Assembly (NCBI RefSeq): GCF_030848565.1
Contig: NZ_JAVDDV010000003.1
Span: 124,001-188,000, forward strand
Direction: 5' to 3'
Length of the DNA: 64,000 nt
From: Natronolimnohabitans sp. A-GB9
GTDB lineage: Archaea; Halobacteriota; Halobacteria; Halobacteriales; Natrialbaceae
Both the position numbers and the translations under genes were made by a program. Below the pieces are notes generated by a model. It made no database searches. It saw nothing but the letters and a program-made list of their open reading frames with translations, and was not told where the DNA came from. The stretch's first letter is position 1. Each line of letters starts with the position of its first letter. Below, in pieces: positions 1,461-54,841 of the stretch.

Positions 1461-1573
1461 TGATACTGTTGGACAGCACGATTCGACGATCGGTCGCGCG
1501 ACTGCGGCCGTCCCGAGGGTGACGGCCGCGATTTCGCGACCGACGTCTCACTGACTGCTGTCCAACAGTATTA
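1461..1573. mobile_element. Group A miniature inverted-repeat element
   Basis: The 113-bp element has ends TGATACTGTTGGACAGCA (left) and the reverse complement of TAATACTGTTGGACAGCA (right). The core runs TAC...GTA. Flanking trinucleotides are TGA and TTA, so no exact duplication remains here. The interior folds back on itself (ACGGCCGC-type arms). It encodes no protein. Its right flank TTA supplies the TAA stop of the minus-strand remnant that ends at 1571. Full group A copies elsewhere have the same 113-bp length. Confidence 0.85.
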
Positions 1574-5118: not shown

Positions 5119-5143
5119 ACCGTGGTGTACGGGCGACTCGGGT

Positions 5144-5338
5144 TTATACTGTCGGACAGCACGAGTCACCGATCGGTCGCATGGCTGCGGCCGTCACCTC
5201 GGAGACGACCGCGACGTCGCGACCGACGGCTCATACGGACTACTGTACGTCGTTACCGGCGCAACCGTGACCCGGCTGCGGTTGCGCCAGTACATCGTTA
5301 CAGCAATCCGTATCACTGACTGCTGTCCGACAGTATTA
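5144..5338. mobile_element. Group A element carrying a nested group C insertion
   Basis: Outer element: TTA + TACTGTCGGACAGC ... GCTGTCCGACAGTA + TTA, so it has a perfect TTA flanking duplication (5144-5146 and 5336-5338). At 5231-5315 it is interrupted by a second element with its own TCA duplication. Removing 82 bp (the inserted core plus one TCA) restores a 113-bp group A element, the same length as the copies at 1461 and 6720. The right half of the restored sequence reads GACGGCTCACTGACTGCTG, as in the intact copies. Confidence 0.9.
5231..5315. mobile_element. Group C element nested in the group A element
   Basis: The 79-bp core 5234-5312 starts TACGGACTACTGTACG and ends CATCGTTACAGCAATCCGTA. 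It is flanked by TCA at 5231-5233 and 5313-5315. Inner arms CCGGCGCAACCG/CGGTTGCGCC add to the fold. It has no coding capacity. The insertion interrupts an otherwise intact element, so group C was mobile after the group A copy landed. Confidence 0.9.
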
Positions 5339-5351
5339 GAACTACGGTCAC

Positions 5352-5389
5352 TGATACGGACTGCCGTATGACGACAGGAGTCCGTATGA
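5352..5389. repeat. Collapsed group D element (38 bp)
   Basis: TGA + TACGGACTGCCG ... GGAGTCCGTA + TGA. Both ends and a perfect TGA duplication remain, but the core is only 32 bp instead of about 79 bp. It looks like an internally deleted relic, 13 bp from the nested group A/C element. Confidence 0.6.
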
Positions 5390-5443
5390 CGGTATCGATG
5401 GTCGTCGGCTGCTTGCACCCATCAGTCGACGGTTGGAACGGTA

Positions 5444-6719: not shown

Positions 6720-6832
6720 TAATACTGTCGGACAGCAGTCAGTGAACCGTCGGTCGCGAAATCGCGGCTGTCTCCGAGGTGACGGCCGCAGCCATGCGAC
6801 CGATCGGTGACTCGTGCTGTCCGACAGTATCA
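6720..6832. mobile_element. Group A miniature inverted-repeat element, full length
   Basis: A 113-bp copy with ends TAATACTGTCGGACAGCA and TGCTGTCCGACAGTATCA. Relative to the copy at 5144 it is in reverse orientation. The flanks TAA and TCA differ in the middle base, so the duplication is decayed or absent. It adjoins a lone end fragment just to its left, as if two insertions met. Confidence 0.85.
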
Positions 6833-10394: not shown

Positions 10395-10475
10395 TGATAC
10401 TGTTGGACAGCACGATTCGACGATCGGTCGCAGTAGCGCGACCGACGTCTCACTGACTGCTGTCCGACAGTATGA
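10395..10475. mobile_element. Group A element with internal deletion (81 bp)
   Basis: TGA + TACTGTTGGACAGCACG ... CTGTCCGACAGTA + TGA, with perfect TGA duplication at 10395-10397 and 10473-10475. It matches the copy at 1461 at both ends but lacks 32 bp of the central hairpin. It lies between divergent genes, so it may influence both promoters. Confidence 0.8.
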
Positions 10476-17037: not shown

Positions 17038-17436
17038 ATGACAGCCCTTCGTGTCACCGTCGACGATCGCACGCTCGAGGCGACCTGGACCGACGACGCG
17101 CCGGAAACACGGGCGAAACTCATGGACGCCTTCCCCGTCGCGGGCGAGGCCGTTCGCTGGGGCGACGAACTCTACTTCGACGTTTCGCTTGACGCGCCAC
17201 CCGAGGACGCACGCGAGGTCGTCCCCGAAGGAGCGATCGCCTACTGGCCCGCCGGCGGCAAACTCTGTCTGTTCTGGGGCCCGACGCCGGCGAGCGTCGA
17301 CGACGAGCCGCGTGCGGCTGCACCCGTGACCGTCGTCGCCCGGATCGACGACGTCTCGCCGCTGTCCGACCTCGAGGGCGGGGCTCGAGTGCGACTCGAG
17401 TCGGTCGACGAAGACGGTTCTGCCAGGAGTAACTGA
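17038..17436 (+). CDS. Cyclophilin-like fold protein (TM1367 type)
   Basis: A 132-residue protein resembling the cyclophilin-like TM1367 family: TLEATWTDDAPETRAKLMDA, AVRWGDELYFDV, EGAIAYWPAGGKLCLFWGPT, and ARIDDVSPLS at the end. The core of WGDE-YF and YWPxGxxLCLFxGPTP is characteristic. Biochemical function of this family is unsettled; peptidyl-prolyl isomerase residues are not conserved. Its TGA stop (17434-17436) is the left flank of a group B element. Confidence 0.85.
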   Translation: MTALRVTVDDRTLEATWTDDAPETRAKLMDAFPVAGEAVRWGDELYFDVSLDAPPEDAREVVPEGAIAYWPAGGKLCLFWGPTPASVDDEPRAAAPVTVVARIDDVSPLSDLEGGARVRLESVDEDGSARSN

Positions 17437-17547
17437 TACTACCGGACAAAAGTCAGTAAACACCCGATCGCGTCTCGACGTCTGTCGCGTTCCGCGACAG
17501 CGTCTCGAGTGCGATCGGTGTGTGCATCGTTTTGTCCGGAAGTATGA
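17434..17547. mobile_element. Group B miniature inverted-repeat element
   Basis: A 114-bp copy: TGA + TACTACCGGACAAAAGTCAG ... CGTTTTGTCCGGAAGTA + TGA, with a perfect TGA duplication. A central hairpin TGTCGCG-TTC-CGCGACA is visible. The left TGA is the stop codon of the upstream gene. Only a handful of base differences separate it from the copies at 29786 and 54678. Confidence 0.9.
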
Positions 17548-17608
17548 GCAACGATCGATCTACTCGAGAGAGTGGAAAGCGAGCCGGGAGACGGGGACCA
17601 GACGCTCG

Positions 17609-25187: not shown

Positions 25188-25297
25188 TCATACTGTCGGA
25201 CAGTACGAGTCATCGATCGGTCGCGCGACTGCGGCCGTCCTCGCGGGGGCGCCGCGTTCGCGACCGACCGGTCACTGACTGCTGTTCGGCAGTATCA
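25188..25297. mobile_element. Group A miniature inverted-repeat element
   Basis: A 110-bp copy: TCA + TACTGTCGGACAGTACGAG ... CTGCTGTTCGGCAGTA + TCA, with perfect TCA duplication (25188-25190, 25295-25297). The right TCA is the TGA stop of the minus-strand gene that follows. The central part GCGGCCGTC ... is partly degenerate. Confidence 0.88.
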
Positions 25298-29706: not shown

Positions 29707-29785
29707 GGCTCACTCGTTTTTCGTATGAGCGAATAAAACGATCGCCAGCACCGGTCGAGGTCGTGGTCGACACGATAGTCACGGC

Positions 29786-29899
29786 TCATACTTCCGGACA
29801 AAACGATGCACACACCGATCGCACTCGAGACGCTGTCGCGGAACGCGACAGGCGTCGAGGCGCGATCGGGTGTTTACTGACTGTTGTCCGGTAGTATCA
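29786..29899. mobile_element. Group B miniature inverted-repeat element
   Basis: A 114-bp copy in reverse orientation to that at 17434: TCA + TACTTCCGGACAAAACG ... CTGTTGTCCGGTAGTA + TCA, with perfect TCA duplication. The right TCA (29897-29899) is the TGA stop of rnhB. Confidence 0.9.
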
Positions 29900-30617: not shown

Positions 30618-30697
30618 TACGGATTGCTGTAACGATTTCCCGGCGCAACCGCGACCCGGGCTGCGGTTGCGCCGGTAACGACTGACAGCAGTCCGTA
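30618..30697. mobile_element. Group C miniature inverted-repeat element
   Basis: The 80-bp core starts TACGGATTGCTGTAACG and ends CGACTGACAGCAGTCCGTA, with inner arms CGGCGCAACCGC/GCGGTTGCGCCG. Flanking trinucleotides GTT and TTG do not match, so no target duplication is visible. It lies between rnhB and pus10. Confidence 0.8.
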
Positions 30698-47051: not shown

Positions 47052-47735
47052 ATGAACCGACGAGCGTTTCTCGCGACGGGCACAAGCGTCGGTATCGGGC
47101 TCACTGCTGGTTGTCTTACCGACGTCATCGCGGGCGAAGAGATTCCCGAGGAGATGATCCTCGAGCCACCCGAAGACGAACACGGCGGTAACGACGACCT
47201 CGCGTATCCGACCTACGGCGAGACGTTTCCGACCATCGAACTCCCAGATCCACTCGCGGAAACGACGGTCGACACGAGCACGTTCGACGACGAAGCGATC
47301 GTCTGTACCGGATTCTACGCGACCTGTCCGTCCGAGTGTATCCCCCTGATGAACAACGTTGCAGCGGTCCAGTACGAGAGCATCGATAGCGGGTTCGAAG
47401 ACGACGTCCGCTTTCTGGCGATCACGTTCGATCCTGAACAGGATACGCCGGCGGAACTCGACGAACACGCCGACATGGTCGGTGTCGATCGCGACGCCGG
47501 GAACTGGCACTATCTCCGGCCGGCCGACGCCGACGAAGCCAGATCGGTCGTCAACGACGAGCTCGGAATCATGTTCGATCGGGACGGCGAGGGTCCGGCT
47601 GCGGACTTTACGCACATCGTCGTCACGTTTCTGGTCAATCCAGACGGCTACGTCGAGCGGAGCTACCGGGGCGAACACCTAGACGTCGACCGAGTCAGTT
47701 CGGATCTCGAGACGGTCGTCGACGAGGCGAACTGA
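47052..47735 (+). CDS. SCO1/SenC-type copper chaperone
   Basis: A 227-residue Tat-exported thioredoxin-fold protein. RRAFLATGTSVGIGLTAGC is a Tat lipoprotein signal. The copper ligands are the CxxxC pair in GFYATCPSECIPLMNNVAA and the His in DFTHIVVTFLVNPDGY. SCO proteins deliver Cu to the CuA site of cytochrome oxidase and N2O reductase. It lies next to nosL. Its TGA stop is the left flank of a group A element. Confidence 0.88.
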   Translation: MNRRAFLATGTSVGIGLTAGCLTDVIAGEEIPEEMILEPPEDEHGGNDDLAYPTYGETFPTIELPDPLAETTVDTSTFDDEAIVCTGFYATCPSECIPLMNNVAAVQYESIDSGFEDDVRFLAITFDPEQDTPAELDEHADMVGVDRDAGNWHYLRPADADEARSVVNDELGIMFDRDGEGPAADFTHIVVTFLVNPDGYVERSYRGEHLDVDRVSSDLETVVDEAN

Positions 47736-47844
47736 TACTGTCGGACAGCAGTCAGTGAGCCGTCGGTCGCGACGTCGCGGCCGTCACCGTCGGCAACGGC
47801 CGCAGTCGTGCGACGACGGTGACTCGTGCTGTCCGACAGTATGA
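47733..47844. mobile_element. Group A miniature inverted-repeat element
   Basis: A 112-bp copy: TGA + TACTGTCGGACAGCAGTCAG ... GTGCTGTCCGACAGTA + TGA, with perfect TGA duplication (47733-47735, 47842-47844). Internal arms GCGGCCGT/ACGGCCGC make the whole element a long fold-back. The left TGA is the stop of the SCO gene. Confidence 0.92.
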
Positions 47845-54677: not shown

Positions 54678-54791
54678 TTATACTTCCGGACAAAAGTCAG
54701 TAAACACCCGATCGCGCCTCGACGCCTGTCGCGTTCCGCGACAGCGTCTCGAGTGCGATCGGTGTGTGCATCGTTTTGTCCGGTAGTATTA
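54678..54791. mobile_element. Group B miniature inverted-repeat element
   Basis: A 114-bp copy: TTA + TACTTCCGGACAAAAGTCAG ... TTTTGTCCGGTAGTA + TTA, with perfect TTA duplication (54678-54680, 54789-54791). Its interior runs in the same direction as the copy at 17434, but its end sequences are those of the opposite orientation. It stands 50 bases before metY. Confidence 0.9.
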
Positions 54792-54841
54792 GCATCCAAC
54801 ACCTCACGCTTTTACGTCAACCACGTACAACGAAGACACGT

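Follow-up and report, generated by a model that had tools for sequence, protein, structure and literature searches.

The 195-bp block at positions 5144-5338 of the window is one mobile element, A, interrupted by a second, C. The window is the whole stretch of DNA analysed, 64,000 nucleotides, within a 343-kb contig of a Natrialbaceae haloarchaeon with a genome of 4.3 Mb. A and C are large MITE-like, non-coding, hairpin-forming families with TNA target duplication. Very probably both insert at TNA and C came to be nested in A through target preference. The composite lies on the plus strand, and its outer TTA repeats were read directly from the sequence (left copy 5144-5146, right copy 5336-5338). 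The left part of A (5147-5233, plus strand, 87 bp), placed by nhmmer and alignments, has a TACTGTCGGACAG terminus and includes the left copy of the TCA duplicated by C (5231-5233). The core of C follows (5234-5312, plus strand, 79 bp, TACGG...CCGTA). It is a single imperfect hairpin with a calculated fold of -38.4 kcal/mol (RNA parameters). The right part of A (5313-5335, plus strand, TCACTGACTGCTGTCCGACAGTA) has the right TCA copy at its start (5313-5315).

A preliminary description had read the block as A split by C, and its coordinates and arithmetic were confirmed. Removal of 5234-5312 and one TCA left a product of 113 bp, the size given there for the intact A copies at 1461-1573 and 6720-6832. 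The comparison proposed there, with the reverse complement of 6720-6832, gave 107 of 113 bases identical. The excision junction TCACTGACTG was identical in both intact copies (the product reads GACGGCTCACTGACTG, the intact copies GACGGTTCACTGACTG and GACGTCTCACTGACTG). A junction mismatch with the intact copies had been named as evidence against nesting; the junctions agree. Without flanking bases these un-nested copies span 1463-1571 (plus strand) and 6722-6830 (minus strand), the latter being the nearest relative of the outer element (95.4%). Most A copies have matching flanks, but each of these two has TGA at one end and TTA at the other.

Both families were counted by profile searches of sampled stretches totalling 1.65 of the 4.30 Mb, picked irrespective of element positions within contigs. 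There were 121 hits for A, 57 of them full length under strict limits, and 178 for C, 119 of them full length, or approximately 73 and 108 hits per Mb. Genome-wide, the A-type terminal 15-mer occurred 363 times compared to 0 for its reversed control, and the C-type terminal pattern 201 times compared to 0 for its control. The families are therefore not due to chance. Both are non-coding. A measures 107-108 bp with a shorter class of 77-78 bp, and C measures 78-80 bp. Two sizes are likewise seen among A-type elements of other genera, 106-108 bp and 77-78 bp. The terminal inverted repeats are TACTG..CAGTA in A and TACGG..CCGTA in C. Further copies in the window include a short A of the 77-bp class at 10397-10473 (plus strand, flanks TGA/TGA), A copies at 25190-25295 (plus strand) and 47735-47842 (minus strand), both with flanks TCA/TCA, and an un-nested C at 30618-30697 (minus strand). 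Three copies of an A-like subgroup with TACTACCGGACA ends (17434-17549, 29784-29899 and 54680-54793) are 96-97% identical. They seem to be more recent than most copies of A or C, which makes them candidates for the latest activity. Viral contigs contained no A ends and eight C-pattern matches. No description of families A and C was found in the open papers that were searched.

The central 8-bp stem of C was paired in 89% of cells across 75 diverged copies. Double changes were present at all eight pairs, in 110 cells compared to a maximum of 52 in 200 shuffles, a comparison between related copies that carries no p-value. Slid controls were far lower. Quasipalindrome correction would yield the same pattern. 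A, short A and C could also be grouped as one orphan hairpin superfamily restricted to the Natrialbaceae (77-80 or 106-110 bp), whose members a putative enzyme needing the whole hairpin would move at TNA. This grouping is unlikely. If true, the whole-hairpin requirement would account for the classes of length as well as for the compensatory changes seen in C's central stem.

A target profile for C was built from 40 un-nested insertions. The consensus is palindromic, CGWCTSAGWCG. When the profile was applied to intact A, 26% of the weight fell at the nested TCA and 44% at the overlapping TGA three bases on (70% together). One sampled nest, L033, is at this TGA. The 1.65-Mb sample contained seven nests of C in A, of which two are weak matches. 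Weighted by target, 1.8 nests would be expected if insertions survive anywhere and 5.9 if they survive in non-coding DNA only, using a crude ORF mask. Seven nests against approximately six expected in non-coding DNA means that ordinary target preference suffices and active targeting is not needed. Programmed targeting, in which C would seek a feature of A as SMR-A seeks PATE palindromes in Haloquadratum, is a very unlikely alternative. It would account for the repeated use of one 3-bp site and has a precedent for strong targeting in another haloarchaeon (PMC3119063). Against it, besides the agreement of the count with preference alone, the site was predicted by a model made from un-nested copies, C enters A at other positions too, and A enters C. 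Nests of A in C and of A in A were both present. In L169 (G000:C2:116196-116363) the nesting is reversed, with A inside a C-like element and TCA duplicated.

Target preference is also the preferred reading of the recurrence of the nest. The same TCA of A carries C at four loci of the genome, in both orientations. These are the window, C12:351321-351511, C45:181269-181433 and C71, where C is inverted and the A host is diverged. The search was widened by a junction search over 125 family genomes and a scan of GTDB species genomes. Composites at the same TCA were found in Salinadaptatus halalkaliphilus (G013), Natrarchaeobius chitinivorans and Natronorubrum halalkaliphilum, and a diverged composite was found in G087, of the same genus as the Natrarchaeobius genome. 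Nests at this TCA occur in three or four genera beyond that of the window.

The common site could instead reflect common descent, through the spread of a single ancient composite of A with C. All composites use the same TCA, mostly with C in the same orientation, and composites move as units in N. halalkaliphilum, as would be expected of such a spread. The nearest relatives of the halves conflict with it. For the four nested C segments of the genome these were un-nested C copies (95.0, 97.5, 96.3 and 96.3% identity). The two full-length nested A elements were likewise nearest to un-nested A (95.4 and 94.5%), a comparison confined to full-length hosts since the hosts at C45 and C71 carry internal deletions and cannot be placed. 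The un-nested nearest relatives of each half in the full-length cases indicate that the nests arose independently. C is present in both orientations, being inverted in C71 and in the Natrarchaeobius composite G085a. The inner C elements also differ in subtype, that of G013 matching those of the window genome at 55-58 of 77-78 positions, and the A halves differ independently of the C subtypes. Common descent is largely refuted and is highly improbable as the explanation of the shared site. The independent recurrence of the nest, together with a mobile composite in N. halalkaliphilum, goes beyond the preliminary description.

Two composites in N. halalkaliphilum are near-identical throughout, one at a site with a TCA duplication and the other at an unrelated site with a TGA duplication. 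Near-identity combined with different flanks and TNA repeats indicates that the composite moved as a unit in this species. A run of ten N bases was present in the loop region of the nested composite L187 (Natronorubrum halalkaliphilum NZ_WUYX01000042.1) and is probably an assembly gap at the hairpin. The clear order of events claimed earlier, A first and then C, is certain for the nesting itself. For the locus at 5144-5338 it is likely and does not strictly follow, because composites can move as units.

The target duplication was established from the families and not from the nest. At 5144-5338 alone the phase is ambiguous, as any 82-bp excision starting between the TCA registers gives the same product; the identical flank pairs in the family census settle that the inner target base is duplicated. 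The same trinucleotide was present on both sides of 44 of 69 exact-end C copies (27 TCA, 15 TGA, 1 TTA and 1 other). This bears out the earlier view that C is mobile as a discrete unit. For A the figure was 31 of 46 exact-end copies (14 TCA, 11 TGA, 4 TTA and 2 TAA). Approximately one third of copies had mismatched flanks, a point against the mechanism proposed below. The duplicated base was independent of C orientation, with 16 TCA and 9 TGA on the plus strand and 11 TCA and 6 TGA on the minus strand. Because the two flanks change their middle base together, whatever the orientation of C, the TCA is duplicated target, and its assignment to C itself was rejected. The earlier claim that the ends and the 3-bp duplication of C were fixed to the base overstates the precision. 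As T and A of TNA are invariant, the sequence does not distinguish a 79-bp element with a 3-bp duplication from an 81-bp element with a 1-bp duplication. Single-strand insertion of the IS200/IS605 type (PATE- or REP-like), with TCA as an upstream target word and as the right end of the element and with no duplication, would suit a hairpin with TCA on both sides at 5144-5338 but has a negligible probability, given flanks that change together (TCA/TCA, TGA/TGA, TTA/TTA) whatever the orientation, and inverted-repeat ends, in conflict with the IS605 and PATE features in PMC3119063.

In the mechanism proposed, A and C are gene-less MITE-like hairpins, unlike in sequence, which would both insert at T-N-A with duplication of the target. 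A would first have inserted in front of the gene for a universal stress protein, between TTA flanks. C would then have entered A at the TCA of the CTCACTGACTG segment. The two best C-target words in A lie in this segment, and independent C insertions would recur there by target preference. Insertion of C keeps the ends of A intact, and composites remain movable as units. A DDE-type transposase with TNA specificity presumably acted in trans and was perhaps lost.

The search for such an enzyme gave no candidate, a result that weighs against the mechanism. No autonomous element with A or C ends was found in 1.65 Mb of the genome. Wherever two A or C ends with equal TNA lay 500-3500 bp apart, they turned out to belong to separate short copies or to match poorly. 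The best of these pairs, L082:17107-18676, consists of two complete A copies with an alcohol dehydrogenase-like gene between them and was rejected as an autonomous element. These copies are inverted around the gene, which is of the zinc type, and TCA is present at both outer edges. This is possibly a gene-carrying unit, although TCA repeats also flank each A individually. The DDE_Tnp_1 and DDE_3 loci of the genome gave no candidate, and its 12 PF01609 loci were without matching ends. DDE_Tnp_1_2 (PF13586) was essentially absent from 41 relatives, with one sub-threshold hit, and DDE_Tnp_4 was absent from 31 relatives. Thus none of the families PF01609, PF13586, PF13358 and PF13359 yielded a candidate whose ends match. 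Even the closest element copies are several percent apart, and for many the difference is 10-20%. This divergence suggests that movement in the genome may be old and that the enzyme may be gone.

The composite begins 26 bp upstream of the ATG of the universal stress protein gene (minus strand; Usp, E 5e-24) and is downstream of a FemAB/GNAT-like gene. In the region 5119-5150, in the direction of usp, the outer end of A and the TTA flank together give TATAAA, approximately 23-28 bp upstream of the usp ATG. The A insertion therefore adjoins or itself forms what is likely the TATA box of this gene. In the same-genus orthologue of usp, a TATA-like word is found at about the corresponding position. 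Just past the composite, at approximately 5354-5391, TGA-TACGGACTGCCGTATGACGACAGGAGTCCGTA-TGA resembles a C element that has lost internal sequence, approximately 35 bp long and bordered by TGA at either end. In the one same-genus genome compared the locus is without A and C, and the intergenic DNA does not align and gives no base-precise empty site. The genes of this genome are only approximately 80% identical to those of the window.

Insertion of one element into another is common among the MITEs, SMRs and PATEs of Haloquadratum walsbyi (PMC3119063). Like prokaryotic and haloarchaeal MITEs (PMC3119063; review PMC10969869), A and C are short and non-coding with inverted ends and target duplication, and they are mostly intergenic, high in copy number and found inside other mobile elements. 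MITEs are defined by ends in common with a parent transposon (PMC3119063). Unlike them, A and C are near-complete palindromes of nearly fixed length and their parent was not found in the sampled DNA or at transposase loci. The SMRs reportedly show no target duplication and target PATE/IS605 palindromes strongly (PMC3119063). A and C resemble SMR-A and SMR-B in their size of approximately 80-110 bp, inverted repeats, lack of a known parent and recurrent insertion at a fixed place in another element (PMC3119063). They differ in duplicating TNA and in nesting at approximately the rate expected by chance. PATEs and other IS200-IS605 derivatives are likewise palindromic, non-coding and very short, but PATEs are without terminal inverted repeats and without duplication (PMC3119063), whereas A and C have both. 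Membership of the SMR or PATE families is excluded by the target duplication of A and C. The IS1031 subgroup of the IS5 family makes a TNA-type 3-bp duplication. A 3-bp target duplication is also described for the eukaryotic PIF/Harbinger elements (Tourist MITEs). A and C share the TNA-type duplication with both, with 3 bp assumed and 1 bp possible, and differ from them in that no such transposase was found (in relatives, DDE_Tnp_4 was absent and DDE_Tnp_1_2 essentially so). The behaviour of A and C is that of MITEs and they have the defining features of MITEs save for an unfound parent transposon. For two abundant repeat families of haloarchaea, the nest is evidence at base level of mobility with duplication of a TNA target. 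It gives a defined target consensus, nested composites that are still able to move, and concrete ends, TACTGYCGGACAG or TACGG, for tracing the transposase. Among known systems, miniature transposons nesting in one another are fairly ordinary, and this is a clean example.
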